The notes below the pieces were generated by a model. That model saw nothing but the letters and a program-made list of their open reading frames with translations. It did not search any database and was not told the origin of the DNA. From Candidatus Aegiribacteria sp. MLS_C (GTDB lineage Bacteria > Fermentibacterota > Fermentibacteria > Fermentibacterales > JCC-6): DNA of 64,000 nt. Below are positions 946 to 40,045 of this stretch, piece by piece; position 1 is the first letter of the stretch, and every line of letters begins with the position of its first letter. The translations under genes and the position numbers were made by a program. Where the stretch lies: positions 186,001 through 250,000 of the forward strand of contig LQBI01000024.1 in NCBI GenBank assembly GCA_002030045.1, read 5' to 3'.

Positions 946-1962
946 ATGAAAGTTTTCTACGCCTCAACGAAGAACGGAGTCAGGTCCGCCGTGAGGGATA
1001 TGATCGAGGCGGCAGGTTTCATGAGCCTCCTTCCGCGGGGAGAGGATATCCTTGTCAAGGTCAACCTCACATGGGACTATCTGATGCCCGGCGTCGACAC
1101 CTCCCCATGGGTTGTGGAGGCCTTCGCCGAGGCCGTCGGAGACCATGTGGGCAGAATACACCTTGGCGAATCCAGCCAGATCCTCGTCGATGCGACCAGG
1201 GCATTCGAGGTGACGGGTATGAAGGCGGCGGCCAGGCGGAGGAACCTCGTATGGCACGACTTCTCCAGGGAGGAGTGGGTCAGCAGGGAGATTAACGGTC
1301 TGAGCTTCTCCATACCCGAGATCTGCACCAGGATGCCGGTCGTCTCGATACCTGTGGTCAAGACCCATTACAGGTCCGTCATCTCCGTGGCCCTTAAACA
1401 CCTGTACGGCTGCCTCGACGACAACAGGCACAACTACCACTACAGGCTGGCCGACTACGTGACGGCGGTGAACGCCGCGATACCGGTGCTCTTCACGATC
1501 GCAGACGGCACATTCTCTCTGGAGGGTAACGGACCCAAGCCCGGAATTCCGAAACAGACCGACTTCATCGCCGCATCCGAGGACAGGGTGGCTCTGGATT
1601 ATTCCGTGTCCCGGGTCATGGGCCTGGACCCTCTATCGGTGGAGACCACGCTGAAGGCTTACGGGACCGCGGGAAGCATCGAGAACGTCATCGACGTCTG
1701 CCTGCCCCCCCTTGAAACCCCCCCCTCCTTCAGTTTCGTGAAGGCGGCGCCCAATTTCGTCGCGAAGATCGAAGGTATCCTCAGGGGCAGGCGGAAACGG
1801 GAACCGGGAACCGACGGGCCGCTGATAGGGATCATGAAGTACGGCGCCAGGAGATGGTACAACCTTGCCTACCACCTGCTGGGGCAGGGCAGGCAGGCTC
1901 GAGGTATCATTCAGGAAAGCTACTACGGCCCCCAGTGGAGGGGCCTGCGGGAACCGGAGTGA
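946..1962 (+). CDS. DUF362 domain protein
   Basis: The 338-residue product matches the DUF362 family: an N-terminal VKVNLTWD block, a central VKTHYRSVISVALKHLYG block and the later GNGPKPG and AASEDRVALDYSVSRVMGLDP segments. DUF362 proteins are often linked to iron-sulfur proteins and anaerobic metabolism, but their reaction is unknown. The first ATG (940) touches the GAAGGG ribosome site, so the ATG at 946, six bases downstream of it, is the better start. The stop is followed within two bases by the radical SAM gene, making this the first gene of a five-gene operon. There is no ferredoxin domain within this copy. Confidence 0.85.
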   Translation: MKVFYASTKNGVRSAVRDMIEAAGFMSLLPRGEDILVKVNLTWDYLMPGVDTSPWVVEAFAEAVGDHVGRIHLGESSQILVDATRAFEVTGMKAAARRRNLVWHDFSREEWVSREINGLSFSIPEICTRMPVVSIPVVKTHYRSVISVALKHLYGCLDDNRHNYHYRLADYVTAVNAAIPVLFTIADGTFSLEGNGPKPGIPKQTDFIAASEDRVALDYSVSRVMGLDPLSVETTLKAYGTAGSIENVIDVCLPPLETPPSFSFVKAAPNFVAKIEGILRGRRKREPGTDGPLIGIMKYGARRWYNLAYHLLGQGRQARGIIQESYYGPQWRGLREPE

Positions 1963-1963
1963 G

Positions 1964-3025
1964 ATGGACCTGAGAGGGCAGATAGGAATGGGGATCGACG
2001 CCGCGCTTGGGATCCTCGGACGCAGGAGACCGGTGAACGTTATGGTCTCCATAACCGACAGATGCTGCAGCCGGTGCAGGTACTGTCAGATACCGGAACA
2101 GGGAAGACCGGACCTCACCACGGAACAGTGGAAAGACCTGTTCGAACAGATGGCCGCCGCCGGAACACGCAGGATCGGCGTATGGGGCGGAGAACCTCTC
2201 ATGAGGAAGGACATCTGCGAGCTGTGCTCGCATGCAAGGTCGCTGGGGATCTACGTCAGTCTCGATTCCAACGGCTACCTCATCCCTTCCAGACCGGAGA
2301 TACTCCGGGAGATAGACCACCTGGTCCTTGCCTACGACGGACCCCGGGAAGCTCACGATGCCAACAGGGAACCCGGAAGCCACGACAAGGCCATCAAGGC
2401 TCTCGAGACGGCCTCGGGAAGGATAAGGCTCTGGACCATCACCGTATTGACCCGCAACAATATATCCTATCTTGACCATATCATGGATACCGCACTGGAG
2501 TACGGTTTCCTCACAACCTTCCAGACACTCCACCACAACGAGAAGCTCGGCGGCGACACCTCGGGCATGATGCCGTCCAGGGAGGAATACTCCGACGCCT
2601 ACCGCAGGCTCCTCTCCATGAAGGAGGCGGGCGCCCCCATTGCCAACTCCAGCAGATATCTCAGAAGCCTCGCTCAGTGGCCCGATTTCTCCGTAACCAG
2701 GATGAAGGAGCCGTTCCACGGCGTCCGCTGCAGTGCGGGACGCATGTACTGCAACGTGGACGCGGACGGAAGGGTCTACCCCTGTTCTCTCCTGATAGGC
2801 CTCTACCCTCCCTCCCTGAACGCTCTTGAAGTGGGGTTCGAGAAAGCCTTCAGGGCTGCCTCCTCCCTTCCTTGCCAGGCCTGCACCGCCAGCTGCTACA
2901 CCGAGTACAACTACCTGTACGGGCTCAGTCCCTCTGTCGCCCTTCAGTGGCACAGATCCGTGTCGAGGACCGACAGGATAATGATGGAGAAACGTATCGA
3001 AAGGGAACTGGACGAACCAAACTGA
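1964..3025 (+). CDS. Radical SAM protein with SPASM-like C-terminus
   Basis: 353 residues. The N-terminal half has the [4Fe-4S] AdoMet motif CCSRCRYC (CX3CX2C, residues near 25-35) and a GGEPL glycine-rich AdoMet-binding strand. The C-terminal part carries further cysteines in the order expected of a SPASM/twitch auxiliary cluster domain (CSAGRMYCNVDADGRVYPC and LPCQACTASCY). SPASM enzymes modify peptides or small molecules, or act as molybdopterin-type synthases; the substrate here cannot be told. The start is the ATG two bases after the DUF362 stop, preceded by GGAG. An in-frame upstream ATG lies inside DUF362 and is not needed. It shares an operon with acyl-CoA-synthetase-like subunits. 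Confidence 0.85.
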   Translation: MDLRGQIGMGIDAALGILGRRRPVNVMVSITDRCCSRCRYCQIPEQGRPDLTTEQWKDLFEQMAAAGTRRIGVWGGEPLMRKDICELCSHARSLGIYVSLDSNGYLIPSRPEILREIDHLVLAYDGPREAHDANREPGSHDKAIKALETASGRIRLWTITVLTRNNISYLDHIMDTALEYGFLTTFQTLHHNEKLGGDTSGMMPSREEYSDAYRRLLSMKEAGAPIANSSRYLRSLAQWPDFSVTRMKEPFHGVRCSAGRMYCNVDADGRVYPCSLLIGLYPPSLNALEVGFEKAFRAASSLPCQACTASCYTEYNYLYGLSPSVALQWHRSVSRTDRIMMEKRIERELDEPN

Positions 3026-3039
3026 AACGGGAGCGAGTT

Positions 3040-4539
3040 ATGCCAGCTTTACCCGAATACAGAACAAGAAAGCTTCTCGAGCGGTACGGTATACCGCTGG
3101 TCCGCGGTGTATTCATCGCCCCCGGGCAGGACGTCCCCGCGGCCCTTCCCGGAATGCCCGTCTACGTCAAGGCCCAGGTCCCCGGCGCCACCGGCAGGAA
3201 GAGCAGCGGACTGGTCAGAAGGGCCGACTCCATGGAGCATCTCCCCTCCGTACTGGCGGACGTCCTCGAGAGCGGATCAGCCGGCCGGTACGAGGGGACA
3301 CTTATAACCGAAGGGCTTGACCTGAAGGCCGAGTACTACGCGGGATGCACCCTGGACCTCGGGTCCAGGGACAGGCCTCCGGGAGGAATGCTTCTTTTCA
3401 GCGCTTCCGGCGGCTCGGGTGTCGAGGACAGGTCCTCCGGACTCCTGAGGATGCCATTCTCCCTTCTGGACCCTCCTTCTTCCGAGGATATAGGTGAAGT
3501 GCTTCCGGGAACAGGCCCGGTCGTCGACAGGCGGACCCTGGCCGGTGTACTGTCCGGAATGATCGATACCTTCATAGGGTACAGGCTGACGGTCCTCGAG
3601 ATAAACCCCCTCGGCCTGCTCGATGACGGTTCCCCGGTGGTGGTCGACTGTCGGGCCGAGTTCGAGAAGAGCGCCGTAGCCGAGGAGGACAGGGAAATCT
3701 TCTTTCCCGGGGACCTTCCCCGTTACGATGACTCCACTCGCCTCGAGAAGATCGTGGAACTGATAAACAGGGACGATCCCTCCGGCACCGGCTTCTTCCG
3801 TCAGAACCGCGAAACACCTCCTGAAGGGTCCATCAGGGTGGCCACCAACCTCTGCGGAGGCGGAGGAAAGATGCTATGGGAGATGACCACCGGAGCAAGG
3901 ACAGACATCTTCACCATGAACGAATCCGATACTTCCGGCGGGCTCTCCGCCTTCAAGAGCTACAGGATCCTCAGAGTCATACTGGCTCAGGATGGCGCTC
4001 GAGTACTGCTTCTGACCGGCTCCGGAATGGCCTTCCAGAACCAGCACCATCTGGCGGCGGCGGTATGGAAGGCCCTTCGCGAGAGCCGGACACCCCTTCC
4101 ATCACTGGTCAGGTTCGGAGGCACCGACGAGGACAGGGCACGGGAGCTGTTCGAACGGGTCCGTGACTCGCTCCCGGTGCCGGTGCTGACCTTTCCCCCC
4201 GAGGTGTTCCCCAACGCCATGGTAGAGATGATCGACGGGCTCGCTTCCACCGGGATCCGTGAACGGGTGTCCAGTGAGCCCCCCGGATCTTACGGGACTT
4301 CGATCGTTGTGGAAAACCCTCCGGGAGAAATACGCTTCTATTCGGAAAGGTGGGTATCGAAAGATGCGCCGCCATCGGTAAGGGCCTGTCCCACCGGTTT
4401 CCTGCGCTGGAACGGGGAAGGGATCGAGGCCGATCCCGATGCCCGGTGCATCGGCTGTCTCATGTGTGAGACCGCAGCGCTGCTGGAAGGAAACGGGGAG
4501 ATACTGGTACACCTTGCAATGCCGGGGGAGGTTGACTGA
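3040..4539 (+). CDS. Succinyl-CoA ligase beta-like ATP-grasp protein with a C-terminal iron-sulfur motif
   Basis: 499 residues. Residues 1-380 follow the SucC plan: an ATP-grasp lid and base (YVKAQV, SASGGSGVEDRS corresponding to the EGGxxIE loop, LEINPLGLLDDG), then the CoA-ligase domain (NLCGGGGKMLWEMTTGA). The family makes acyl-CoA from an acid with ATP or GTP, or the reverse. Unusually there is an extension of about 90 residues ending in ACPTG and CIGCLMCE, enough cysteines for one [4Fe-4S] cluster. SucC normally has about 390 residues and no such cluster. The ATG is 14 bases after the radical SAM stop, with GGGAG upstream. The stop overlaps the alpha-subunit start as TGATG. The true substrate is unknown. 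Confidence 0.8.
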   Translation: MPALPEYRTRKLLERYGIPLVRGVFIAPGQDVPAALPGMPVYVKAQVPGATGRKSSGLVRRADSMEHLPSVLADVLESGSAGRYEGTLITEGLDLKAEYYAGCTLDLGSRDRPPGGMLLFSASGGSGVEDRSSGLLRMPFSLLDPPSSEDIGEVLPGTGPVVDRRTLAGVLSGMIDTFIGYRLTVLEINPLGLLDDGSPVVVDCRAEFEKSAVAEEDREIFFPGDLPRYDDSTRLEKIVELINRDDPSGTGFFRQNRETPPEGSIRVATNLCGGGGKMLWEMTTGARTDIFTMNESDTSGGLSAFKSYRILRVILAQDGARVLLLTGSGMAFQNQHHLAAAVWKALRESRTPLPSLVRFGGTDEDRARELFERVRDSLPVPVLTFPPEVFPNAMVEMIDGLASTGIRERVSSEPPGSYGTSIVVENPPGEIRFYSERWVSKDAPPSVRACPTGFLRWNGEGIEADPDARCIGCLMCETAALLEGNGEILVHLAMPGEVD

Positions 4540-5501
4540 TGCCGGGAATACTCGAACACTTGGCGGGAGTCGAGTGGCCCAGGACGATGGTGTTCGGAAT
4601 AACGGGCAGGCAGGGACAGAGCAGGACAAGGATGATGGTCAGGTACGGGACGGAGGTCCTTGCCGGTTGCACTCCCGGCAAGGGAGGCCAGGAAGTGGAC
4701 GGAATACCGGTGTTCGACTCCGCAGCCGAGGCGGTGGAGGCGTTCCCGGAACTGAACTCCGCGGTGTTCTTCGTCCCGGCCGGAGCGGTCAGGTCTGCAG
4801 CCATGGAAGCGATCGATGCCGGCCTCAGGTTCCTCGTTCTCACGGCTGACGGCGTTCCCCTGCATGACGAGATAGCCATCAGGGAATACTCCTCTGGATC
4901 CGGTTCCGTCTGTCTCGGCCCCAATACGGTCGGTCTCCTGGATACGGAGGGGTATCTCTTCGGCCTCATTGGCGGAAGCGCCGACTGGGCGAAGAAGAAC
5001 TACCTCCCCGGATGCGTGGGGGTCATATCCAGGTCAGGAGGCCTCTCCCAGCTCCTCGGAGCCTTCCACTGCAGGCCGAACCTCCCGGGTCCCAGGGAGG
5101 ACGGGACCTACGGGCCCCTCTGGGGCGACGATTATCCCGGTGTGAGCGCGGTGGTCTGTGTCGGAGGCGACCCGGTTCCGGGTATCACCATGCTGGATGC
5201 GGCGCTGGCCTTCCAGAAGGACCCCAGGACAGGGGTTATGGCGGTCTACGGCGAGACCGGTACCACCCAGGAGAACGACCTGGCGAAAGCGGTTGCCGGC
5301 GGTGAAATAACCAAACCGGTGGTGGTCTTCCTCGGAGGCAAGTACACGAAGGCGGGAGTGGCGCAGAGCCATGCCGGAGCAATGATAAGGAACGACAGCG
5401 AGACCTGGGAGGCCAAGCACAGGGCCCTCACCGACGCCGGAATACGCGTGGTGGAAAGGCCGGATGCAGTGTTCGGGGCTGTCCTTAAGGCCCTGGAATG
5501 A
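4539..5501 (+). CDS. Succinyl-CoA ligase alpha-like subunit
   Basis: 320 residues with a CoA-binding Rossmann start (VFGITGRQGQSRTRMM, close to the SucD GxTGxQG loop) and the phosphohistidine segment AGVAQSHAGAMI, whose histidine is the phosphorylated residue in SucD. It would pair with the preceding beta-like subunit to form an ATP-dependent acyl-CoA ligase. The start ATG shares one base with the stop of that gene, indicating coupled translation. Compared with SucD there is a longer insert between the CoA-binding and ligase domains (GPREDGTYGPLWGDDY). Family assignment is firm; whether succinate is the substrate is not. Confidence 0.88.
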   Translation: MPGILEHLAGVEWPRTMVFGITGRQGQSRTRMMVRYGTEVLAGCTPGKGGQEVDGIPVFDSAAEAVEAFPELNSAVFFVPAGAVRSAAMEAIDAGLRFLVLTADGVPLHDEIAIREYSSGSGSVCLGPNTVGLLDTEGYLFGLIGGSADWAKKNYLPGCVGVISRSGGLSQLLGAFHCRPNLPGPREDGTYGPLWGDDYPGVSAVVCVGGDPVPGITMLDAALAFQKDPRTGVMAVYGETGTTQENDLAKAVAGGEITKPVVVFLGGKYTKAGVAQSHAGAMIRNDSETWEAKHRALTDAGIRVVERPDAVFGAVLKALE

Positions 5502-5532
5502 CAGCAAAACCGGAATGCGGTGGTCTCGAAGC

Positions 5533-6666
5533 ATGAAGTACAGGAAATTCGGAACTTCGGACTGGAAGGTCTCTGCCCTGGGATTCGGCATCATGAGGAT
5601 GCCCCACCATGAGGGTGACGAGTCCAGGCTGCTCGAAGAGGAATGCAGGTCCATGGTCCGCCACGCAATAGACAGTGGCGTGAACTACATCGACACCGCC
5701 TACAACTATCACGGGGGCGGAAGCGAACAGTTCCTGGGAAGGGCCCTGGACGGCGGCTACAGGGACAGGGTCCGCCTGGCCACCAAGCTCCCCTGCTGGA
5801 TGATAGAGAGCGGGGCCGACTTCGACAGGATCTTCGACGAACAGCTGGAGAGGCTGAAGACGGATCGCATCGACTACTACCTGCTCCACGGGCTGCAGAG
5901 GGACTGGTGGGACCAGCTAAAGGACTACGGTTACAGGGAATGGGCGGAAAGGCGTATCGCGGACGGCAGGATAGGGCACGCGGCCTTCTCCTTCCACGAC
6001 AGGCTGCCCCTGTTCAAACGCATAGTCGACGAATGGGACCTGTGGTCCATGGCCCTCGTGATGTACAACTACATGGATGTCCAGTACCAGGCCGGGGCCG
6101 AGGGGGTGAAGTACGCATTCGACCGCGGACTGGCCGTTGTGGCGATGGAACCCCTGAGGGGAGGTCTCCTCGCCGGGAAGCCCCCGGCTTCCGTGAAACG
6201 AGTCTTCGATCGTTCAGGCATTTCCAGGACCCCGGCGGACTGGGCCCTCCAGTGGCTCTGGGACCAGCCGGAGGTTTCCTGCGTTCTCAGCGGTATGAGC
6301 AGCATGGAACAGCTGAGGCAGAACATCGCCAGTGCGGAGAGGTCCGGCGTGGGAACACTCTCCGACCAGGAACGCGACCTCCTGGCTGCGGTAAGGGAAG
6401 AATATTCGTCGAAGAAACCCGTCGACTGCACCGGCTGCAGGTACTGCATGCCGTGCCCGGAGGGTGTCGCAATACCGCACATACTGAGCATCTACAATCT
6501 GGGCAGGATGTACGAGGCGGAAGATACCGCCAGGTGGCACTACAGCTTCGTCGGTGAGGAGAACCGCCCCGGCGCCTGCACCGAATGCGGACAGTGCATG
6601 GAGAAATGCCCTCAGCACCTGGACATCGTAGAACTCCTCAGGACGGCCCACACCTGCCTGGCCTGA
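5533..6666 (+). CDS. Aldo/keto reductase with C-terminal 4Fe-4S domain
   Basis: 377 residues. The N-terminal part is an aldo/keto reductase TIM barrel (MKYRKFGTSDWKVSALGFG start, DTAYNYHGG with the catalytic Tyr, ATKLP, LQWLWDQPEVSCVLSGM). The C-terminus has two cysteine groups, CTGCRYCMPC and CTECGQCMEKCP, as in the COG1453 family of iron-sulfur aldo/keto reductases. The start at 5533 is chosen because homologues begin MKYRxFG; the ribosome site is weak, and an in-frame ATG at 5515 is the alternative. It is the last gene of the 946-6666 operon and ends 44 bases from a convergent gene. Confidence 0.88.
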   Translation: MKYRKFGTSDWKVSALGFGIMRMPHHEGDESRLLEEECRSMVRHAIDSGVNYIDTAYNYHGGGSEQFLGRALDGGYRDRVRLATKLPCWMIESGADFDRIFDEQLERLKTDRIDYYLLHGLQRDWWDQLKDYGYREWAERRIADGRIGHAAFSFHDRLPLFKRIVDEWDLWSMALVMYNYMDVQYQAGAEGVKYAFDRGLAVVAMEPLRGGLLAGKPPASVKRVFDRSGISRTPADWALQWLWDQPEVSCVLSGMSSMEQLRQNIASAERSGVGTLSDQERDLLAAVREEYSSKKPVDCTGCRYCMPCPEGVAIPHILSIYNLGRMYEAEDTARWHYSFVGEENRPGACTECGQCMEKCPQHLDIVELLRTAHTCLA

Positions 6667-6709: not shown

Positions 6710-8134
6710 TCAGTAATACCTGCTTCTGAAATAGGTGACCACGCTTCGGAGGTACTCACCTGCAGTGAGCCTGTAGGGGAACTCCCTCTGCTTTATGCAG
6801 TAGCCCTTCCAAAGCTTGTCCATCAGGTCGTAGAGACGGTCCAGGGGCAGTGTTACCAGTTCATCGACAGCGTCCCGCAGCATCGGGAACTCTATGTCCA
6901 GGGCGAACAGCTTCCTAAGTCTCTCCCTCTCGGGCCTGTCCGGAATGTCGAGTATGCTGCAGTTGAAGAATGAATCGGGGGCTGAGTCCGCATCCTCGGC
7001 TCTCATGAACCCCTCCTCCACGCAGAACCTGCCGATGGCGGTCCTCGGATACGGCTGGAGCAGCGTTGCGAAAGCGAAATCCGGGTGGATCACGCAGTTG
7101 AGGTCCAGGGTCTCCAGGTCGTCTTCCATGGTGCCGGTGGGTATGCCCAGTATGTTTTGCGTCACCAGCACTATGCCCGCCTCCTTGACCGCGCTGCATG
7201 CCTCCAGGATGGTCTCCCTGCTCATATTTCGGTTGAGGATGCCGTTCCGCAGCCTGTCCGAGGCGAATTCGATGGCCATCTTGACGCTCACGCAGCCGGC
7301 TTCCCTGAGCCTGGCGGCTATCTCGCGGTCCACCAGGTTGGCTCTCAGATGGCAGTGGAAGGGCAGGCCGACCCTTCTCCGGTACTCCCGGCAGAAATCC
7401 AGCACCCAGTCCCTGTCCAGTACGAATATGTCGTCCTGGAAGACTATCATCTGCAGCTTCGGGTTGTTGATCCTAAGGTCCTCCAACTCCTGAAGGACGT
7501 TCTCGACGCTGCGCCTTCTGCACATTCGCCCCAGGCCCGAGTAGAGTTCCTTGTAGGCGTGGTTGAAGCAGTAGCTGCAGTCGTACGGGCATCCCCTGCC
7601 CGTGATCGCGAAGACAGCTTTGCGGTTCAGCCTTTCCGAATAGCGGTCCAGAAGCTCCCTGTCGGGAAATGGGATCGAATCCAGGTCTTCCCTGAGGGGA
7701 AGCAGCGGGTTGTGGACGATGACGCCGTCCCTTCTGAAGACCAGGTTTCCGACGCTGTCCAGGCCGCGTCCTCCTTCAAGGGCCTCCAGGAGCTGTATGA
7801 AGGAGTCCTCTGCCTCTCCCCTGATGATGAAGTCCAGTTCCGCGGATTCCTCCAGGACCTCGGGGAAGAAGGTGGGATGCGCGCCTCCCATGACGGTCAG
7901 GGCGTCCACGGACCGCCCTATCTCCCTGACGGCCTCCAGGTACTTCCTGTGGAATCCCGTTGTGCATCCGAAGGCTACGAGGTCAGGAGCGAAGCCGCGG
8001 GCGACCTCCAGCAGGTCACGTTCGTTCAGGACCGCCGCCATTACACTGTGCCCCGCCTGTCTCGCCATGGACGATACGTAGGATACGCCGAGAGGCACGG
8101 TGATCAGGTCGTGGACCAGGAAGAGCACCTTCAA
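6710..8134 (-). CDS. B12-binding domain radical SAM protein
   Basis: 474 residues. A cobalamin-binding-like Rossmann domain fills the first ~150 residues (MGGAHPTFFPEVL, IIRGEAEDSF). A radical SAM domain with CPYDCSYC (CX3CX2C) follows, then a mixed C-terminal region. Members include anaerobic cyclases, methylases and hopanoid or lipid-modifying enzymes; the substrate is unknown. The reading frame begins with TTG (8132-8134, giving MKVLFLVHDLI), which matches the usual N-terminus of the family. It lies 40 bases downstream of the M1 peptidase gene and is probably cotranscribed. Confidence 0.85.
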   Translation of the reverse strand: MKVLFLVHDLITVPLGVSYVSSMARQAGHSVMAAVLNERDLLEVARGFAPDLVAFGCTTGFHRKYLEAVREIGRSVDALTVMGGAHPTFFPEVLEESAELDFIIRGEAEDSFIQLLEALEGGRGLDSVGNLVFRRDGVIVHNPLLPLREDLDSIPFPDRELLDRYSERLNRKAVFAITGRGCPYDCSYCFNHAYKELYSGLGRMCRRRSVENVLQELEDLRINNPKLQMIVFQDDIFVLDRDWVLDFCREYRRRVGLPFHCHLRANLVDREIAARLREAGCVSVKMAIEFASDRLRNGILNRNMSRETILEACSAVKEAGIVLVTQNILGIPTGTMEDDLETLDLNCVIHPDFAFATLLQPYPRTAIGRFCVEEGFMRAEDADSAPDSFFNCSILDIPDRPERERLRKLFALDIEFPMLRDAVDELVTLPLDRLYDLMDKLWKGYCIKQREFPYRLTAGEYLRSVVTYFRSRYY

Positions 8135-8174: not shown

Positions 8175-10085
8175 TCACCGGACCAGCAGCTTGGCCGTCT
8201 GTCTCAGGCCTCCCTCTCCTCGAACGGTTACCAGGTACAGGCCGGAAGGTACGCCGGAAAGATCGAGGACCCTTTCGGAACCGGTCAGTTCCCAGCTGGA
8301 GAGCATGCGTCCGGCAAGGTCGAACAGGGATGCTTCCATTGAGCCGTCCATGCCGCTCCAGATCACCTCCGTCGAGAAGTGCGCCGGATTCGGCGCCAGC
8401 CTCAGGGTTCCCACGCCTCCAGGCGGGAGCTGCGGCCCGTCACCCGTGCCCAGCAGATGGGTGGAGAGCACCTTGTTGCCGGGATCGAAAACAACGGACT
8501 GCGGCTGGAAGGGTACGCTGAATACCTGGCTCTGCACCGCCTGGTCGTTCCACATGACCACCAGGGAGTCCTGCGACGACCCGTGAATACTGAACTCCAG
8601 GGGCATGGTGAATATCGTCGGAGTGGTCTGGACCTGCTGCAGATCGACCGTGACGTCCCACCCGGAACCCGACTGCTCCCATTCGTAATCGAGGTCGTAG
8701 ACCGGGTAGCCCCACCCGTGGACCCATGTGTCGAAGAACCAGTCTATGTCCTCCCCGGTAATGTTCTCGACATGGTCCCTGAGATCGTTCGTGGTGGCGG
8801 TATGGTAGGCGTGATGATCGAAGTATTCCGCCAGTGCCGCAAAGAAATCATCGTCGCCGATGACATGCCTCAGCATGTGAAGCACGCTGGCGCCCTTCTC
8901 GTAGGTCGTGTAGCTCCAGAGTTCTCCCGGCGTGGAGGGTGCGCTGAGCGGAAAGGTCTCCCCGCTGTACAGGTAGGGTTTCATTATGTTGTTCAGGATG
9001 TACTGGTCGTAGCTGGACTGCCCGTAATACTCCATCCATACGGCCTCGCTGTACGTGGCGAATCCCTCCGAGAGCCACACGTCCGACCATTCCTCCTCCG
9101 TGACGCAGTTCCCCCACCAGTGGTGGCTCATTTCGTGTGCCAGGAGCCAGTCGTATGTGGTGGAGCCGTTTATGGCGAAAGCTATGTGGTAGACCTGTGT
9201 GAGGTGTTCCATGTCACCTCCCGGGGTCTCCACATAGCTGAACTTTGTCTGCCATGGATAGGGGGCGTACAGGGACTGGAACCGGTCCATCATGAGATCC
9301 ACGTTCTGGAAGCTTCCCAGGGCGTCGTCTATCTCCCACGGGTATACGAAGTAGTAGATCCAGTCGTAGGTTGAATCCTGGAGCACCGTGTATTCCGAGA
9401 CCGCAAAGGCGGCAAGGTATGTAGACATCGGCTGAGGCTGCAGCCAGTGGTAGGATGCGGTGGCATCCGTGGAGTTTACCGTCTTCGAGACAAGGTCTCC
9501 GTTGGCAACTGCGTACAGGGTGTCCGGCACCGTCACGGTAAATTCGACCGAGGCCTTGTCCGAAGGATGGTCCCAGCACGGGAAGATAACCCTTCCCAGC
9601 GAAGGGGGAAGCGTGGATATGCCGACACCCATGTGGTAGAAGACATAGGACTGGAAATAGAACCCGCCGAACCCCCCCGGTCCCTCGTTCCAGGGTGTGC
9701 CGGAGTACTCGACCCTCACGGTGGCGGTGTCGCCGGGGTCCATGGGCGTAGCGAACTCGACCTCGAGTGAATCATCGTACTGAGTCCATGAGATCGGCCC
9801 CGTGCCGTCCCAGGTCACTCCTGTGACGGCCAGCTGCAGCAGGTCGAGCCTTATTCGATCCAGTCCGGCCATTTCCGGAGTGAACGTCACGAATGTGGTG
9901 CATTCCAGTATCTCCGTCTGCGGGAACACCTGGACCCTGACATCGTAGTGCATTACGTCGAAATCGTGTGCAGCATCAGAGTATCGGAGGATTCCTGTCC
10001 CGTATGGATCGAGGGGTCTGTCCATCGCTCTCATGTCAGGCCCGGGCAGAGGCGCCGCCAGCATTATCATCAGTAGAGGGAACAT
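8175..10085 (-). CDS. Secreted M1-family metallopeptidase with T9SS-type C-terminal domain
   Basis: 636 residues. A signal peptide (MFPLLMIMLAAPLPG) precedes an M1 aminopeptidase fold. The substrate-binding GxMEN motif appears as GDMEH. The zinc motif HEMSH near residue 316 is followed 18 residues later by the third ligand Glu (WLSEGFATYSE). The last ~75 residues (LAPNPAHFSTEVIW, ASLFDLAGRMLSSWEL, VPSGLYLVTVRG) look like a type IX secretion sorting domain, so the enzyme is probably exported to the cell surface or medium to degrade peptides. It lies between the kinase and radical SAM genes in a minus-strand run. Confidence 0.9.
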   Translation of the reverse strand: MFPLLMIMLAAPLPGPDMRAMDRPLDPYGTGILRYSDAAHDFDVMHYDVRVQVFPQTEILECTTFVTFTPEMAGLDRIRLDLLQLAVTGVTWDGTGPISWTQYDDSLEVEFATPMDPGDTATVRVEYSGTPWNEGPGGFGGFYFQSYVFYHMGVGISTLPPSLGRVIFPCWDHPSDKASVEFTVTVPDTLYAVANGDLVSKTVNSTDATASYHWLQPQPMSTYLAAFAVSEYTVLQDSTYDWIYYFVYPWEIDDALGSFQNVDLMMDRFQSLYAPYPWQTKFSYVETPGGDMEHLTQVYHIAFAINGSTTYDWLLAHEMSHHWWGNCVTEEEWSDVWLSEGFATYSEAVWMEYYGQSSYDQYILNNIMKPYLYSGETFPLSAPSTPGELWSYTTYEKGASVLHMLRHVIGDDDFFAALAEYFDHHAYHTATTNDLRDHVENITGEDIDWFFDTWVHGWGYPVYDLDYEWEQSGSGWDVTVDLQQVQTTPTIFTMPLEFSIHGSSQDSLVVMWNDQAVQSQVFSVPFQPQSVVFDPGNKVLSTHLLGTGDGPQLPPGGVGTLRLAPNPAHFSTEVIWSGMDGSMEASLFDLAGRMLSSWELTGSERVLDLSGVPSGLYLVTVRGEGGLRQTAKLLVR

Positions 10086-10135
10086 GGTGTCTCCTTACGA
10101 TCCGTCTTTTCGGGAAAACCCGTCCGGCATGGTTA

Positions 10136-11722
10136 TTACCAGTTCTTTTCCGAGAAGATCGAGTTTCCTATGAACTCCCTCAGCAGGCTTGTTATAGGCA
10201 CGATGCTCTCATCTATCGTCCTCACGCAGTCAAGGATGTCCAGCAGCTTTACCGCCTTATGGTACGCCGGTGATTGCTCGGGAACCTTTTCCAGCAGCGG
10301 TTCTGCGTACTTCTTTAGAACAGGCAGCTCGTAGGGCAGGGAAGAGTTGAACATGGCGTCCGCGTCCTCCTGGAATGGGAAGATGTTTCTCCTCTCCCCT
10401 CTCTTGACCGAAGCCCATACCAGAATGGTCTCCTCTGCGCTGTACCCTCTCTGTGTACTGTCCCTTACCATTCTCCTGATCAATCGGCTGTCCGATGTGG
10501 ACATTCTGGTCAGTCTGTCAATGTTGAGCTGTGTCAGGGCGGATGCGTAGATACGGAATTTCCTGTCAGGACCTATTCCGGGGGTCAGTGCATCGTTCAG
10601 CCCGTGTATTCCCTCCACTATCAGGAAGTCCATCGGGCCCAGCAATACTGGTACGACGTCGTCCCGCCTTATTCCATCACGGAAGTCGAACACCGGAGTA
10701 AGCACCTCCTCGCCTTCCAGAAGCCTTTCCAGGTGGCTGCCGAAAAGCACTGTGTCAATTGCCTCCAGGCACTCGAAATCCGGTTTGCCGTCCCTGTCCC
10801 TGGGAGTGTCCGACCTGTGCCTGAAGTAGTTGTCGACATTCAGCAGCCTGGCGCCGAACCCCCGTGCCACGAGGTATGTCCTCAGCAGCCTGGCGAATGT
10901 CGTCTTCCCGCTGGATGATGGTCCCGCAATGGTGACGATCCTTCTCTCAGGGAAATCCTCCTTCAGGTGCTGTACTATCTGGACCATCCTGTAGGTCTGG
11001 TAGAAGTGGCTCATTATCACCAGCTGCTTCCCGCCGTCCTCCTCGATCCTCATGTTCAGATGATCTATGTCCGGGACCCCCATCCTGGCGATATGCTTCT
11101 CCTCCATGTCGAACTCCCTGTTCAGCTTCCTCCTCGGAACCCAGGGTTCTATCTCCGGCCATGACGCCGAACCCGGAAATCTAAGTACGAAGTCCCTATC
11201 CAGCGGTTTCAACTCCCACTTCGTGAGCCAGGATGTGTCCGGGACCGAGGGACCCATGGCGAAGGCGCAACTGTCGAGCAGCCTGTTGCCCCTTATGGCC
11301 CTTCCCCCCGAGCTCCACTTCACAAGATCGAGGAATTCTTCCGGAAGGTGGCCGCAGTCATTCGGATCGTACTTGACCGTTGCTATCTCCAGCGACTCCT
11401 CCACGATCCTCTCAAGTTCCCGTGTCAACCTTCCCACGACTTCCTCAGAGGTCATCTGAGGCCTGTTCAAGAGTCTGCACCTGTATCCCAGCGAGATGGA
11501 GTGCTCCACCCACAGTGTGGATTCCGGGAACTGCCTCTTCACCGCCAGGTCCAGAGCCAGTATCAGTCCCCTCCTGTATATCTCCCTGCCCTCTCCGGAA
11601 GCAGACTCCACAGTACTCACGGAGGTTCCCGCGGGAATCCCGTCGGAAAGGGATATGATCCTGCCGTTGGAGAGCCTGTAGGCTATTGTCCTGCCTATGA
11701 TGGTATCAGAATCCTGTTTCAC
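10136..11722 (-). CDS. Uridine-kinase-like nucleoside kinase with long N-terminal domain
   Basis: 528 residues. The C-terminal half is a P-loop kinase of the uridine kinase/phosphoribulokinase type (Walker A GPSSSGKTTF near residue 270, NVDNYFRHR, DFLIVEGIHGLN, RLIRRMVRDSTQRGYSAEET). The N-terminal ~250 residues resemble the threonyl-tRNA-synthetase-related domain fused to nucleoside kinases in many anaerobes. It presumably phosphorylates a nucleoside with ATP or GTP in the cytosol. The start is GTG (11720-11722) with GGAGG five bases upstream. Its promoter is recognisable just upstream. Confidence 0.85.
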   Translation of the reverse strand: MKQDSDTIIGRTIAYRLSNGRIISLSDGIPAGTSVSTVESASGEGREIYRRGLILALDLAVKRQFPESTLWVEHSISLGYRCRLLNRPQMTSEEVVGRLTRELERIVEESLEIATVKYDPNDCGHLPEEFLDLVKWSSGGRAIRGNRLLDSCAFAMGPSVPDTSWLTKWELKPLDRDFVLRFPGSASWPEIEPWVPRRKLNREFDMEEKHIARMGVPDIDHLNMRIEEDGGKQLVIMSHFYQTYRMVQIVQHLKEDFPERRIVTIAGPSSSGKTTFARLLRTYLVARGFGARLLNVDNYFRHRSDTPRDRDGKPDFECLEAIDTVLFGSHLERLLEGEEVLTPVFDFRDGIRRDDVVPVLLGPMDFLIVEGIHGLNDALTPGIGPDRKFRIYASALTQLNIDRLTRMSTSDSRLIRRMVRDSTQRGYSAEETILVWASVKRGERRNIFPFQEDADAMFNSSLPYELPVLKKYAEPLLEKVPEQSPAYHKAVKLLDILDCVRTIDESIVPITSLLREFIGNSIFSEKNW

Positions 11723-32773: not shown

Positions 32774-32975
32774 AATCCATCAAAGGATTCCCGAATACCG
32801 GAACGAAACTCCCCAATCGAAAAGGCTCCCATGGGCATCAATGATAACCTGAACCCCTTGTTATGCTGCTGCGGCATAACATCGAGAATTCCGGTGTTAA
32901 CAAGCACAAGTGTATTGCCCTTGAACGTGTTATCGATATTGACTCGCATATATCAATGCTTTTATTCTCTGTCAG
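32774..32975. other. Boundary region between host-like sequence and the cassette array
   Basis: No gene. The sequence turns AT-rich. GTTATGC (32860-32866) and GCATAAC (32874-32880) form a perfect hairpin. With GATAACC (32843) and GTGTTAAC (32894) flanking it, this resembles a worn attC site, too degenerate to call. A second GTTATC lies near 32930. No attI site or integrase gene is visible. Confidence 0.4.
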
Positions 32976-33029
32976 CATAACCGGGCAACGGTGTTAACTT
33001 AACACGCTGCCGCATAATCATTGTTATGA
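32976..33029 (+). repeat. attC-like site 0, upstream of the methyltransferase cassette
   Basis: ATAAC (32977) and GTTAT (33023-33027) mark the ends. The centre is the hairpin GTGTTAA-C-TTAACAC, extended by GGCAACG against GCTGCC. The right arm carries about eight more bases than the left. The layout is that of an attC site, but the outer pairing is poor, so it may be degenerate or another recombination site. Confidence 0.45.
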
Positions 33030-33062
33030 AGAACCAGTTTGATTCTACCGGAAAGGACCATT

Positions 33063-34787
33063 ATGAAAAAACTCTACTATGGAGACAATCTGGATGTTCT
33101 CCGAAGAGAGATAGCTAGCAATTCTATTGATCTTATATACTTAGATCCACCTTTCAACTCTAAAAAATCCTACAATGTGTTATTCTCTGGACCTACCGGT
33201 GAAGCAAGAGCACAAATACAGGCGTTCGACGATACTTGGAAATGGACGCCAGAGACCGAGAGTATCTACATAGACATGCAAAACGGAAGCGTACCAGCAA
33301 GGGTTGCAGATGCGGCTCAAGCATTTCGCTCATTACTTGGTGAAAATGATGTTCTCGCATACTTAATAACAATGGCTCCAAGATTAGTTGAGCTGCATAG
33401 AGTACTAAAATCAGAAGGATCCCTCTTTCTACATTGTGATCCTGCAGCAAGCCACTATTTAAAAGTGCTACTGGATGCAGTATTTGGAGGGCGGCGATTC
33501 CGAAATGAAATCGTGTGGAAAAGAACTGGTGCCCATACAACCCCAAGAAGGTTCGAAACAATACATGATATATTGTTGTTTTATGCAAAGGGCGATAATG
33601 CATACTTTAATCCAATTAAAACACCTTACACTAAGGATCATGTTGATTCAAGATATACCGAAGACGAAAAAGGTAGGCTGAAATTCGTTACAGGCGGGAA
33701 CATCCTTTCAGGACCTGGTGCTACAAACGGCGACTCGGGCCAACCATGGAAAGGTTTTGATCCATCAAGCAAGGGTCGGCACTGGGCAGTACCAGGTTAT
33801 CTTGCAGAGCAGATGCCAGAGGGATTCTCTGAATTGTCGGTAAGAGAAAGACTGGATGCTCTCTATGATGCCGATCTAATTGAAATAAAGAAAGGAGCTG
33901 AATGGCCGCATCCGGTTAAATACCTTGCGGATGATGATGGTAAATTTCTATCAGATATCTGGGCATACCAACCAGGTACAGAAGGCGTACTATACGGTAC
34001 AGACCAAGGAATTGACGCAGATGTGCAATGGATCGGTCCAACAGATCCAGAAGATCTTGGATATCAGACTCAGAAACCGGAAGGTCTCTTGGATAGGATT
34101 ATTAGCTCAACATGCCCGCCTGAAGGGATTGTGCTTGATCCATTCTGTGGTTGTGGAACCACAATTGCTTCCGCACAAAGGCTTGGTCGGAATTGGATTG
34201 GGATTGATATCACCTACCTAGCTATTGATTTAATCGAGAAAAGACTCGTTGCCCAGTACGGTGATAACATATCCGATGAATACGAGATCTTTGGTATTCC
34301 GAGAGACATGGATGGAGCAATGACTCTCTTCAACTCAAATCCATTTGACTTTGAGAGATGGGCAGTTTCTATTGTAAATGGCCAGCCTAATGAAAAGCAA
34401 GTCGGTGATAGAGGTATAGATGGGATCGTGAGATTCCCACTTGATGTTGCTGGACGAAAGAGCGCGAAAGCAATTGTCTCTGTCAAAGGCGGAAAGTCAC
34501 TCAACCCAGGAATGGTTAGAGATCTAATGGGTACAGTAGATGCAACACAACAAGCAGAGATAGGTATTCTAATCTGCTTAGAAAATCCCACAAAAGGTAT
34601 GCTTGATGCTGCGGCAAGAGCTGGGGTCTACGAATGGCCCTTAACAAGAGAGCGTTATCCAAAGGCTCAAGTCATAACAATAGAAGAGTTACTAGATGGC
34701 AAAAGACCACATATGCCTCCAACATTGCTCCCATACATTAAGGCTCAGAAATTTGAAGATCCGAGTGGGCAGATGAAGTTGCTATAG
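33063..34787 (+). CDS. Cassette-borne DNA methyltransferase with Mrr-like C-terminal domain
   Basis: 574 residues. Motif IV (YLDPPF, residues 27-31) comes before motif I (DPFCGCGTT, near 360), the beta-class order of N6-adenine or N4-cytosine methyltransferases, including type III Mod-like enzymes. Residues ~415-560 (DRGIDGIVRF, AIVSVKGGKSLNPGMVRDLMGTVD, GILICLENPTKGM) resemble the Mrr-type restriction-endonuclease fold often fused to such enzymes; Ser stands in the usual Gln/Glu position before VK, so cleavage is uncertain. ATG 33063 has AAAGGA upstream. The gene fills one cassette of about 1.84 kb between sites 0 and A. AT-rich codon use differs sharply from flanking genes, indicating transfer. 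Confidence 0.88.
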   Translation: MKKLYYGDNLDVLRREIASNSIDLIYLDPPFNSKKSYNVLFSGPTGEARAQIQAFDDTWKWTPETESIYIDMQNGSVPARVADAAQAFRSLLGENDVLAYLITMAPRLVELHRVLKSEGSLFLHCDPAASHYLKVLLDAVFGGRRFRNEIVWKRTGAHTTPRRFETIHDILLFYAKGDNAYFNPIKTPYTKDHVDSRYTEDEKGRLKFVTGGNILSGPGATNGDSGQPWKGFDPSSKGRHWAVPGYLAEQMPEGFSELSVRERLDALYDADLIEIKKGAEWPHPVKYLADDDGKFLSDIWAYQPGTEGVLYGTDQGIDADVQWIGPTDPEDLGYQTQKPEGLLDRIISSTCPPEGIVLDPFCGCGTTIASAQRLGRNWIGIDITYLAIDLIEKRLVAQYGDNISDEYEIFGIPRDMDGAMTLFNSNPFDFERWAVSIVNGQPNEKQVGDRGIDGIVRFPLDVAGRKSAKAIVSVKGGKSLNPGMVRDLMGTVDATQQAEIGILICLENPTKGMLDAAARAGVYEWPLTRERYPKAQVITIEELLDGKRPHMPPTLLPYIKAQKFEDPSGQMKLL

Positions 34788-34791
34788 GAAT

Positions 34792-34868
34792 CATAACCAC
34801 AGCGTGAACCAGACGCCTGTAAGAGTTCGGGGTAAATGCTAACGGCGCTGGTTACGCTGATTGTTATC
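34792..34868 (+). repeat. attC site A
   Basis: The left arm ATAACCACAGCGTGAACCAG (34793-34812) pairs with the right arm CTGGTTACGCTGATTGTTAT (34848-34867): 12 paired positions with one extra C on the left, an unpaired spacer, then a 5-bp outer pair. Ends AAC/GTT and the extrahelical base are attC hallmarks. The predicted crossover is after the G at 34863. Confidence 0.85.
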
Positions 34869-34881
34869 TAGAAAGAAGACC

Positions 34882-35787
34882 ATGAATCAACTGCCACAGA
34901 TGCTTTGTCCCGAGTGCTTAAGACCCATGGAGAATAACGGAAGTACAGTAAAACCAACAGCAAAGTACAAAGACTGTATTCGAAAGTGTCAAGCCTGTGG
35001 TATTGGTTACTCGAATTCAGTAGCAAAACCTTCACTGATTTTCGAAGATCCTAGAAAGAACATTCCTGGTTTTGTGGACAGCTCAGATTTTCTCAAAATC
35101 CTGGAGAAATCCAATAACCGAAGGAATATCAGTAACAAGAAGTGCAAAGCGGGATTCTCAACATCAGAGGACGCAGTTACTTATACCTTCGTTAAATCCT
35201 TTTCTCAAGCTGATTCAATCGAGCGAATGATGAAAGTACTCGGACTTGAGATGAACAGCAACCATGTTGATTTGTTTCTATGGGGATGTCCTATTTCAAA
35301 AGGCACGGACATTACATTGATTAATAGGATGAATTCTTTGCTAAGTAATGAGTTTGCGGAGAGGGCAAATTCTCTCACAGAGCCAGACATTATTCTGAGC
35401 GTTGAGGGCTACGGTATTGTCATTATTGAAGTGAAGTTGCACAGTTCTAACGAAGTTAAAGCAACTGAAAAGTTAAGCAATTATCTGGATCGCAGCTTCT
35501 ATACTAATGTAGCAAAGGCAAAGTCCTCTCAGCATTATGAGCTAGTTAGAAACTGGTCAATTGGTAACGCCTTATCCGAGGGTTGCAACTTCACACTTAT
35601 CAATTTAGGCAAAGAATCATTGTTTACAGACCGAAATGCATCAAAGCTACAGCTGTTTAAGGAATCACTAAACTGTAATAAGAGGCGCCAGTTTGCTCAG
35701 GTATCCTGGGAAGAAATTCTGAACAGATTAGAAGAGAGGGATTCTCAGTTAAAAGAATATCTGAAGAGGAAAACAAAGTATAGATAA
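34882..35787 (+). CDS. Cassette-borne zinc-ribbon PD-(D/E)XK nuclease-like protein
   Basis: 301 residues. The N-terminus has a zinc-ribbon pattern (CPECLRPM and CQACGIGY). The centre contains TEPDIILSVEGYGIVIIEVKL, the P-D...E-x-K arrangement of the PD-(D/E)XK nuclease superfamily, preceded by a helix with a possible extra acidic residue (STSEDAVTYTF). It could be a restriction or repair nuclease; no known restriction enzyme was recognised. ATG 34882 follows AAAGAAG. It directly follows the methyltransferase cassette, so the two may act as a restriction-modification pair, which is an inference. The stop codon lies inside attC site B. Confidence 0.7.
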   Translation: MNQLPQMLCPECLRPMENNGSTVKPTAKYKDCIRKCQACGIGYSNSVAKPSLIFEDPRKNIPGFVDSSDFLKILEKSNNRRNISNKKCKAGFSTSEDAVTYTFVKSFSQADSIERMMKVLGLEMNSNHVDLFLWGCPISKGTDITLINRMNSLLSNEFAERANSLTEPDIILSVEGYGIVIIEVKLHSSNEVKATEKLSNYLDRSFYTNVAKAKSSQHYELVRNWSIGNALSEGCNFTLINLGKESLFTDRNASKLQLFKESLNCNKRRQFAQVSWEEILNRLEERDSQLKEYLKRKTKYR

Positions 35788-35858
35788 CCACAGCATGAAC
35801 CAGAAGCCTGCAAGGAAATGGGTAAGGTTAACGGCTCTGGTTACGCTGATTGTTGTGC
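35784..35858 (+). repeat. attC site B
   Basis: Nearly identical in arms to site A: ATAACCACAGCATGAACCAG (35784-35803) against CTGGTTACGCTGATTGTTGT (35837-35856), with the same extra base and spacer; the centre differs. It overlaps the stop codon of the nuclease-like gene. The predicted crossover is near 35853. Confidence 0.85.
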
Positions 35859-35897
35859 GTATAAATGCTATAGACACTTAACGCTAGTGGAGGAAGA

Positions 35898-36659
35898 ATG
35901 TCAGATGAAATGAAGGGGAAAGTGGCGCTGATTACCGGTGGTAGTTCTGGAATCGGTAAAGCAGCTGCCTTTGCGTTTGCCAACGAGGGAGCACAGGTAG
36001 TAATCGCCAGCAGATCAGAGGATACTGGAGAGAAAGCTGCCAGCGATATAAGACAATCCGGTGGAAATGCGAAATGGATTAGGGCAGACGTAACGCAGGA
36101 AGACCAAGTTAAGACATTGGTAACACTGATATTAGAGGAGTATGGCAGGCTTGATTATGCCTTCAATAACGCAGGATCAGGTGGAAAAGGCGGTTGGACT
36201 ACTGAGATAGAGGAAGAGGACTGGGATAAGACAATATCAGGCTTTCTGAAGAGTGTATGGCTGTGCATGAAACACGAACTACCAGCAATGCTTGATAACG
36301 GACAAGGTTCGATAGTGAATAATTCATCTGTAGACGGTAAACGAGGTTTCCGTTGGGACCCCGTTTACTCAGCTGCGAAGCATGGAGTGATTGGGTTAAC
36401 AAAATCATCTGCATTGCAGTATGCCCAGCAAGGAATCCGTATTAACGCAATCTGCCCTGGATGGATAATAACCCCTCCAGTTGAGAAGATACTAGAGCAT
36501 AATCCCGAAGCAGGGAATGGTATGCTTCTTCACCAGCCAATTGGAAGATTCGGTAAACCTGAGGAAGTAGCTCAGGCAGTTGTCTGGCTGTGTTCAGACA
36601 AGTCATCATTGATTACAGGCACAGTGCTTCCAATTGATGGAGGCTATCTAGCGATATAA
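35898..36659 (+). CDS. Cassette-borne short-chain dehydrogenase/reductase
   Basis: 253 residues, a classical SDR: the TGGSSGIG cofactor loop, NNAG, catalytic Ser in IVNNSSVDG, YSAAK (Tyr-Lys), and the PGWIITP tail. It oxidises or reduces an alcohol/ketone with NAD(P); the substrate is unknown. The ATG follows GGAGGAAG. It occupies one cassette (~0.88 kb) between sites B and C. A TATAAA immediately after site B (about 35860) might be a -10 element serving it. Confidence 0.9.
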   Translation: MSDEMKGKVALITGGSSGIGKAAAFAFANEGAQVVIASRSEDTGEKAASDIRQSGGNAKWIRADVTQEDQVKTLVTLILEEYGRLDYAFNNAGSGGKGGWTTEIEEEDWDKTISGFLKSVWLCMKHELPAMLDNGQGSIVNNSSVDGKRGFRWDPVYSAAKHGVIGLTKSSALQYAQQGIRINAICPGWIITPPVEKILEHNPEAGNGMLLHQPIGRFGKPEEVAQAVVWLCSDKSSLITGTVLPIDGGYLAI

Positions 36660-36667
36660 ACCGCACG

Positions 36668-36741
36668 GCAACAGAATGCAGCAGAACAGCGTTTGGGAGT
36701 TTAACCTGGGTTTTTGCAGTCTGCTGATTCAGAGCGTTCAA
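36668..36741 (+). repeat. attC site C
   Basis: The left arm AACAGAATGCAGCAGAACAG (from 36670) pairs with GCAGTCTGCTGATTCAGAGC plus GTT (ending 36738) through AGCAG/CTGCTG, ATGC/GAT and AAC/GTT, with extra bases on the left arm. The right arm is shared with sites D and E. Confidence 0.8.
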
Positions 36742-37140
36742 TAGAAAAGATAGAAGTCATATCAAACCGGACAGAGATTATCAAGGTAGATAATCATCAT
36801 TTTAATGATGATATTACAGTCGGTCTTTTCGACAATTTGCAATCCTTAAGCGAATCTCCGAAAATCAGGTATTCTAATGCTTTGCTGATGCATCAAAAGC
36901 AGACTAACCAATTCCGACTAATTGGGTACATTGTCCGAATATAGAAATAATAAAATAATTCACACACTCATGTAACTTGTTATTAAATTTTTAAAAGGTT
37001 ATCATTGTAGTATGTGTGAAGAGTTAATTCTTTCACTGTGAAATCAATCTGGGCTATGAAACAAGTCTAACTAACATCGTGTTACATCCTGTCAATAAGT
37101 TTACTTCTTTCGAGCTTATGATATTCGGAAGGAGAAAGTC
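36742..37140. other. AT-rich leader region of the FG-GAP cassette
   Basis: No convincing gene; a 76-codon frame (36714-36944) begins inside attC C with TTG and has no ribosome site. The palindrome ATCATCATT-TT-AATGATGAT lies at 36793-36812. A good promoter is at 36977-37005. The cassette thus carries its own expression signal. Confidence 0.5.
36977..37005 (+). promoter_or_regulatory. Cassette-internal promoter
   Basis: TTGTTA (36977-36982), a 17-base AT-rich spacer and TATCAT (37000-37005). The leader to the ATG at 37141 would be about 130 bases. Confidence 0.6.
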
Positions 37141-38994: not shown

Positions 38995-39144
38995 CACCGG
39001 CGATCCCGTAGAGTTCAACGAGCTTCACACTCTTCTGGCCTCAACTGCCAACTGGGAAAGCTTGTTAGCATTTTAAACGCAATGAAGTGAAGCTATAGAA
39101 CATTTGCAGTATGCACATCTGGAGTATTACTTTGCGGATAAAAT
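38995..39144. other. Spacer after the FG-GAP gene
   Basis: Contains no gene. It is the 3' tail of the cassette before attC D. Confidence 0.5.
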
Positions 39145-39222
39145 TGAACAAGCAAATGCAGCAGAACTGCGTCAGAACTATTGAAACTCAGGTTTTTGCA
39201 GTCTGCTGATTTAAGCGTTCAG
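39145..39222 (+). repeat. attC site D
   Basis: The left arm AACAAGCAAATGCAGCAGAA (39147-39166) continuing CTGCG pairs with TTGCAGTCTGCTGATTTAAG continuing CGTT (to 39219). CTGCTG, ATTT, GCAGT and GTT/AAC all pair, with single extra bases on the left arm only, as in attC sites. It is closely similar to sites C and E. Confidence 0.85.
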
Positions 39223-39494
39223 TCGACCGCAGTCGGAAAAGAAATAAACGGAAAATGAATATGAAAACGCTGCAGGAAAAGATAAACAAGTATGCGGAAA
39301 GCGGTCGACTGAATGGGCCGCGTATTACCACACGCTAGTTCATCCGCCTGCGGCGTCTGAACAAGCGTATGCAGCAGTCATTGAATCCGAACAAAATGAA
39401 AGCAAGGCTTATACCTCCGCCGCCGGGAAACTCATCCCGGCTCAATTGCTGATCTTTTGCTTGTGGATCCATGTTTTTCTAGTCGTTGAATGAT
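39223..39494. other. Region between attC D and hicB with a degenerate attC-like palindrome
   Basis: A 27-codon frame at 39255-39338 (MNMKTLQEKINKYAESGRLN...) may be a truncated cassette gene. From 39358 to 39467 ACAAGC pairs with GCTTGT, and CAGCA(GTC)ATTG with CAATTGCTG, around an inner CCGGGA/TCCCGG hairpin. This has the layout of a larger, worn attC without a proper GTT end. Confidence 0.4.
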
Positions 39495-39854: not shown

Positions 39855-40045
39855 TCCATCACCTCGCGGATTGCTTTCTCTACCTCGCGCTCCTGATACT
39901 TCTTTGCGTCCTGCGAAAGGTAACCGCTTATTGTTATCTTCGCTCCCTTGGGGTGAGTGAAGTTTCGATGGCTACCTTTTCCGCCGCGGTTTATAAAACC
40001 CGCATTCTTCAGGTCGCGAATCAACTCTCTTACTTTCCTCGGCAT
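39851..40045 (-). CDS. hicA: HicA-family mRNA interferase toxin
   Basis: 64 residues, the normal HicA size, with a dsRBD-like fold: VRELIRDLKNAGF, then the catalytic-His segment GGKGSHRNFTHPKGAKITISG. HicA cleaves mRNA independently of ribosomes and is held in check by HicB. The ATG (40043-40045) has no ribosome site and lies about 7 bases from a -10 element, so the mRNA may be leaderless. Confidence 0.88.
   Translation of the reverse strand: MPRKVRELIRDLKNAGFINRGGKGSHRNFTHPKGAKITISGYLSQDAKKYQEREVEKAIREVME

Follow-up and report, generated by a model that had tools for sequence, protein, structure and literature searches.

The stretch of DNA considered here, called the window, comprises 64,000 nucleotides from the genome of a Candidatus Fermentibacteria (Aegiribacteria) bacterium (G000), and positions refer to it unless another sequence is named. 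Near its start, five genes encode a DUF362 protein, a radical S-adenosylmethionine (SAM) protein, the proteins LigB and LigA, which resemble the two subunits of an acyl-coenzyme A (acyl-CoA) ligase, and an aldo/keto reductase (Table 1). The ligase with its ferredoxin-like domain and its putative role in citrate cleavage are the main subject of this report.

Table 1. Genes and sequence features of the five-gene row in the window
Feature	Position	Strand	Evidence
DUF362 protein, 338 aa	946-1962	+	Pfam PF04015, E 6.7e-30
Radical SAM protein, 353 aa, C-terminus Cys-rich, SPASM-like	1964-3025	+	PF04055, E 8.2e-20
LigB, ATP-grasp acyl-CoA ligase beta-like subunit, 499 aa	3040-4539	+	PF08442, E 2.3e-8
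Ferredoxin-like C-terminal extension of LigB, residues ~406-499	4255-4536	+	Cys conservation, profile match
LigA, alpha-like subunit, CoA-binding, phosphohistidine-type, 320 aa	4539-5501	+	PF02629, PF13607, PF00549
Stretch of LigA aligning to ATP-citrate lyase alpha (GPxTVG ... SRSGG ... YPG)	4917-5183	+	phmmer
Aldo/keto reductase, C-terminal 2x[4Fe-4S] motif, 377 aa	5533-6666	+	PF00248, E 5.4e-33; PF13187, E 2.2e-9

The original prediction had described the genes as lying on one strand with gaps of 1 to 31 bases. All five are indeed on the plus strand, but LigB and LigA overlap by one base (TGATG) instead of being separated by a gap, and the other distances are, in order, 1, 14 and 31 bases. 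Scans for promoters and terminators gave signals no higher than in shuffles, and the radical SAM gene has no NCBIfam equivalog above cut-off. Convergent with the row, a B12-binding radical SAM protein is encoded on the minus strand at 6710-8134, and a homologue of it is found beside the locus also in L009, L011, and L013.

Three modules in the gene row

Fermentibacterota are an uncultured phylum of anaerobes. Every genome in the comparison is metagenome-assembled, and absences rest on similarity searches. LigB homologues with 51-71% identity are encoded in 30 of 42 Fermentibacterota genomes, and beyond this phylum the ligase is found in Phycisphaerae (L017, L019), Myxococcota (L018), and Riflebacteria (L024). 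When the five genes are mapped over all loci, the usual order in Fermentibacterota is DUF362, radical SAM, LigB, LigA. Of about 20 loci that have room for the reductase, 6 encode it after LigA (the window, L009, L010, L013, L016, L039), and it is not present in 14 loci with enough room; its eight cysteines are invariant across the five copies aligned. L022, L037, and L038 lack DUF362, and L031 has a broken copy of it. The DUF362 and radical SAM genes are also found in G004, G025, and G028, which have no ligase, and the ligase occurs without both of them in all three other phyla. As the DUF362-radical SAM pair, the ligase, and the reductase thus occur apart across genomes, the locus consists of three units, which are DUF362-radical SAM, the LigB-LigA pair, and an optional aldo/keto reductase, and it is not one obligate operon.

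The original prediction had taken the row for a five-gene operon that points to an anaerobic pathway, in which acyl-CoA formation or breakdown may be tied to electron transfer. What is kept across the phylum is the four-gene order, with the reductase being optional. That the genes are packed tightly on a single strand and that three of the five proteins have iron-sulfur or radical motifs is in line with a single pathway, but the members occur separately, which rules out that all five form one obligate pathway, and the conserved functional partner of the ligase is a lyase that is encoded elsewhere, so that the single-pathway idea is very improbable. It appears right insofar as a CoA thioester would be formed and then broken, for which the lyase partners described below are good evidence, but a direct tie to electron transfer is conjectural. 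The DUF362 protein, the radical SAM protein, and the reductase are probably accessories with a task that is separate from that of the ligase.

The LigB-LigA family and its iron-sulfur extension

Pfam and NCBIfam bear out the families of the five genes, but no curated family model matches the LigB-LigA pair above its cut-off. The nearest curated families are SucC and SucD, whose models score far below their thresholds, with 53.6 bits for LigB against TIGR01016 (SucC, cut-off 375.55) and 195.7 bits for LigA against TIGR01019 (SucD, cut-off 353.2). In the tree, LigA is on a long branch away from SucD with 100/100 support, and the sequences of Phycisphaerae, Myxococcota, and Riflebacteria fall into one clade. 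LigA has an invariant phosphohistidine motif, QSHAGAM (H278), and an SRSGG motif, and phmmer aligns it to ACLY-B of Methanothrix (6hxi_B) with no large gap through GPxTVG...SRSGG...YPG, whereas SucD alignments to the same region have a 6-residue gap and SRSGT instead of SRSGG. LigB shares the motifs SG..S....Y and GS...F.N with ACLY. Judged by sequence, LigB-LigA (LigBA) is a distinct family that is far from SucCD.

Like SucCD, LigBA has the typical domain make-up with phosphohistidine and ATP-grasp, and it differs from SucCD by the low scores, the extension, and the separate clade of LigA. The same make-up is known from the malate thiokinase MtkAB. Another relative is the citryl-CoA synthetase CcsAB, which acts together with a citryl-CoA lyase in Hydrogenobacter thermophilus (Aoshima et al. 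2004; PDB 6HXQ, 6HXP; PMC3665934, PMC9802188). CcsAB is, like LigBA, a two-subunit SucCD-like ATP-grasp and phosphohistidine ligase with a separate lyase, but LigB has the additional ferredoxin domain, the sequence similarity to CcsA is distant (E 3e-9), and the lyase of Fermentibacterota is a CitD-CitE fusion (CitDE) and not a relative of citrate synthase as in Hydrogenobacter. With ACLY/AclAB, LigA shares the above-mentioned loops and LigB the SG..S....Y motif, but LigA ends after the ligase domain and has no fused citryl-CoA-lyase domain, and LigB has the iron-sulfur domain added and three citrate contacts of ACLY replaced (see below). In fold comparisons of the AlphaFold2 (AF2) model with Foldseek and VIA-align, LigB matches SucC with Z 26.0, the beta subunit of Chlorobium ACLY with Z 25.9, and CcsA with Z 25.8, and as these matches are tied, structure alone leaves the substrate unsettled.

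It has to be considered that LigBA could be an isoform of succinyl-CoA synthetase that is coupled via its ferredoxin domain to a 2-oxoglutarate:ferredoxin oxidoreductase. SucC and SucD are its nearest curated families, and a 2-oxoacid:ferredoxin oxidoreductase without ferredoxin subunit opens the Phycisphaerae cluster, but the scores, the long branch of LigA, and the SRSGG motif with its ACLY-type loop in place of SRSGT speak against this, an ordinary SucD is encoded in every host tested, and there would be no reason for LigBA to go together with a lyase of the CitE type. Such an isoform is therefore improbable. Ordinary SucCD is encoded in G000 adjoining fumarase and malic enzyme (G000:C2:166371), which rules out that LigBA is the only SucCD of this genome, and ordinary SucD is found also in the Riflebacteria genomes G040-G043.

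The extension of LigB comprises about 95 residues and contains the motifs ACPTG (C450) and CIGCLMCE (C470, C473, C476). Each of the four is kept without exception in the 27 homologues aligned, and the pattern is therefore not due to chance; their order, CP...CxxCxxC, is that of ligands in [4Fe-4S] ferredoxins. In the divergent members L036 and L037, the pattern is CxxCx4Cx3CP...CxxCxxCx3C, as in 8-Cys 2[4Fe-4S] ferredoxins, and one additional relic cysteine is kept in L017-L019, L021, and L030, which is why the single-cluster extension looks like a dicluster ferredoxin that has been reduced. A family profile matches with residues 419-475 the ferredoxin subunits of respiratory enzymes, such as 6cz7_B. 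The AF2 model has a predicted local distance difference test (pLDDT) score of 82.6 overall and a block with pLDDT 84-93 over residues 421-490, and among the fold matches listed for it there is no solved structure that covers the extension. It can be expected that the domain binds one [4Fe-4S] cluster, and two in the deepest members. The original prediction had regarded the extension as foreign to ordinary SucC, and it is indeed real, conserved, and lacking in ordinary SucC. It had also named what would speak against it, but the cysteines do not vary among homologues, and searches of Pfam, NCBIfam, PDB, and the literature yielded no family known to have such an extension. The literature searches also yielded no described iron-sulfur-fused ligase of the LigB kind.

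Probable lyase partners and the absence of CitF

In the Myxococcota locus L018, the ligase is preceded by genes for an isocitrate dehydrogenase-like protein, an HD-domain protein, a LeuCD-fused aconitase-like protein, LeuC, LeuD, and a citryl-CoA-lyase-like protein, and the Phycisphaerae locus L019 has the same row with a two-subunit 2-oxoacid:ferredoxin oxidoreductase further upstream. The best PDB match of the L018-type lyase is the citryl-CoA lyase of Hydrogenobacter (6hxp, E 8e-34), and the best citrate synthase follows with E 9e-18. In the Phycisphaerae sequence L057, the oxidoreductase genes (10127-11251 and 8784-10241, minus strand) come with no ferredoxin subunit in the cluster, at the end of which a ligase with ferredoxin domain is encoded.

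In Fermentibacterota, no citryl-CoA-lyase-like or other citrate-synthase-family protein was found. These bacteria have a fusion protein of about 400 residues, in which a CitD-like carrier domain is joined to a CitE-like lyase. This CitDE protein matches PF06857 over the cut-off, its best curated model is CitE (TIGR01588, 228 bits), and its signature DTVYxDxxNExG is of the CitE type and not the DGPFGDF of malyl-CoA lyases. LigB and CitDE were compared in the 42 Fermentibacterota genomes, and among the 24 with a completeness of 90% or more, both are present in 18, both are absent in six, and none is discordant (Fisher 7e-6, with the tree being ignored). Five genomes that are discordant (G002, G012, G013, G046, G050) are 61-80% complete. 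The radical SAM gene, serving as control, fails the same test, and the presence of aconitase-family genes does not track the ligase. Riflebacteria show both arrangements, as LigBA is found with CitDE (40% identical) in G043, where CitF was looked at within the 17 kb read, and with a citryl-CoA lyase and without CitDE in G040-G042. This genomic association suggests that LigBA works with a dedicated lyase, either of the citryl-CoA-lyase type or CitDE. The surroundings of CitDE (L080, L084; G000:C34 ~69000-79000; G006:C26) are conserved and encode two secreted ferredoxin-type proteins, two membrane proteins, of which one is DsbD-like and one of the Fer4_5 (NapH-like) type, and a protein with a TFIIB-type zinc ribbon.

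CitF is the citrate-activating (alpha) subunit of ordinary bacterial citrate lyase. It was absent (PF04223) from all 24 Fermentibacterota genomes searched and detected in G030, G032, and G035 as well as in controls. These three genomes have no iron-sulfur-type LigB, and their CitDE fusion (36-48% identical) is encoded near CitF, in case of G035 in the row aconitase, CitDE, CitF. Ordinary CitD carries a phosphoribosyl-dephospho-CoA group that is attached to Ser14. An alignment of 14 fusions with E. coli CitD shows Lys or Arg at this position throughout, so that the group has no place of attachment there, which argues for the use of free CoA thioesters by CitDE instead of a carrier-bound one. 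Ser14 is lost also in the fusions near CitF (L099, L100, L101), whose genomes are without CitG, and this suggests that the citrate lyases of G030, G032, and G035 act on free CoA thioesters as well. As CitG is absent from CitF-bearing genomes too, its absence is uninformative on whether prosthetic-group chemistry takes place. Compared to CitDEF, the partner lyase of LigBA is thus also made of CitD and CitE, but the Fermentibacterota system has neither CitF nor CitG, and ATP would serve to activate citrate on free CoA.

Elsewhere in the window, a permease of the CitMHS (citrate transporter) family with TrkA_C domains is encoded at 43315-45159, about 37 kb from the ligase. The region 32800-41500 has a low guanine-cytosine content (0.43-0.51 versus about 0.60) and encodes a DNA methylase (33039-34787), a weakly restriction-endonuclease-like protein (34861-35787), and an insertion-sequence-like transposase fragment (40876-41280); it is likely a mobile island.

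Proposed citrate activation and its alternatives

From the sequences, we infer the following activity, substrate, cluster, and redox role of LigBA. LigB-LigA would be a two-subunit, ADP-forming acyl-CoA ligase that makes the CoA thioester of a hydroxy acid, most likely citrate. ATP would phosphorylate H278 of LigA, and an acyl phosphate would then be handed to CoA. In a retro-Claisen reaction, a separate lyase would split the resulting citryl-CoA, with acetyl-CoA and oxaloacetate as the products, and this lyase would be CitDE in Fermentibacterota, probably also in Riflebacteria, and the citryl-CoA lyase encoded beside LigBA in Phycisphaerae and Myxococcota. LigBA would thereby take the place of CitF in Fermentibacterota and have the role that citryl-CoA synthetase has in Hydrogenobacter, and LigBA and CitF may be alternative routes for charging citrate. 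That LigBA activates citrate and a separate lyase cleaves it is the reading that is favoured here, albeit by a slight preponderance.

Several observations weigh against citrate. The absence of citrate-synthase-family proteins in the Fermentibacterota searches leaves the source of citrate unaccounted for, and neither overall sequence nor fold places LigB closer to CcsA or ACLY than to SucC. Of the citrate contacts of human ACLY (G309, N346, F347, T348, and R379), LigB keeps G309 and F347, but N346 is Ala, T348 is Gln, and R379 is Phe, the latter in all LigB proteins, and due to these three replacements the substrate may be a smaller acid. CitDE has its best PDB matches with malyl-CoA lyases (E 9e-46) and also resembles CLYBL, and in Fermentibacterota it is encoded away from LigBA. 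The co-occurrence of LigB and CitDE covers perhaps three to five independent losses, and in G015 the absence of the ligase may be an assembly gap, as the radical SAM gene is cut by the contig end.

Also the DUF362 neighbour fits poorly. Its AF2 model (pLDDT 73) matches malate racemase (7s91/6d6z) with Z 16.2 in VIA-align, the next unrelated row being at Z 5.8; the alignment with 7s91 covers 224 residues with a root-mean-square deviation of 4.0 and 9% identity, and lactate racemases are matched at Z 16. DUF362 and DUF2088 (LarA) are in the same Pfam clan, CL0471 (PMC11770544). The model suggests a LarA/malate-racemase-like fold and a function that is related to hydroxy acids. A search of PDB sequences with DUF362 gave a single match of 61 residues, to the repeat protein VopV, which was judged to be due to chance. 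As citrate is prochiral, a racemase-like protein makes little sense next to a citrate-activating enzyme, and it would suit malate or citramalate.

The same two steps could thus take place with citramalate or malate, in which case LigBA would form citramalyl-CoA or malyl-CoA like MtkAB, CitDE would release acetyl-CoA together with pyruvate or glyoxylate, and DUF362 would act on the stereocentre. The Phe in place of the citrate-gripping Arg, the malyl-CoA lyase and CLYBL likeness of CitDE, and the racemase-like fold are all in agreement with this, and LeuCD-type aconitase-family genes could serve citramalate too. However, the clusters of Phycisphaerae and Myxococcota hold a partner of the citryl-CoA-lyase type along with isocitrate dehydrogenase-like and aconitase-like genes, the signature of CitDE is that of CitE, and DUF362 and LigBA each occur without the other. 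Citramalate or malate is therefore unlikely, although it has to be kept in mind as a serious option.

Returning to citrate as the substrate, the iron-sulfur domain would probably serve for gating or docking of the ligase by the ferredoxin pool or by a partner enzyme, as an oxidoreductase adjoins the ligase in Phycisphaerae and ferredoxin-type proteins surround CitDE in Fermentibacterota. In the most far-reaching form of this idea, which is rather doubtful, a redox-gated iron-sulfur citryl-CoA synthetase and a CitF-less CitDE with degenerate acyl carrier domain, or a citryl-CoA lyase, would constitute a third ATP-driven citrate cleavage. The cluster would read the ferredoxin pool, and citrate would be split only with reduced ferredoxin, as in a reductive half-cycle of the tricarboxylic acid (TCA) pathway that is hidden in supposed plain fermenters.

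The reductive TCA cycle is diagnosed by its citrate cleavage step. In genome surveys, this step is scored by ACLY or by CcsAB together with citryl-CoA lyase (PMC9802188). If LigBA indeed activates citrate, such surveys would miss it, as it scores only as a weak succinyl-CoA ligase, and a capacity for citrate splitting would be hidden in Fermentibacterota as well as in part of the Planctomycetota, Myxococcota, and Riflebacteria. Moreover, it is chemically unusual for an ATP- and CoA-dependent ligase to have a ferredoxin domain, and redox control over an enzyme that itself is not a redox enzyme could be tested with it.

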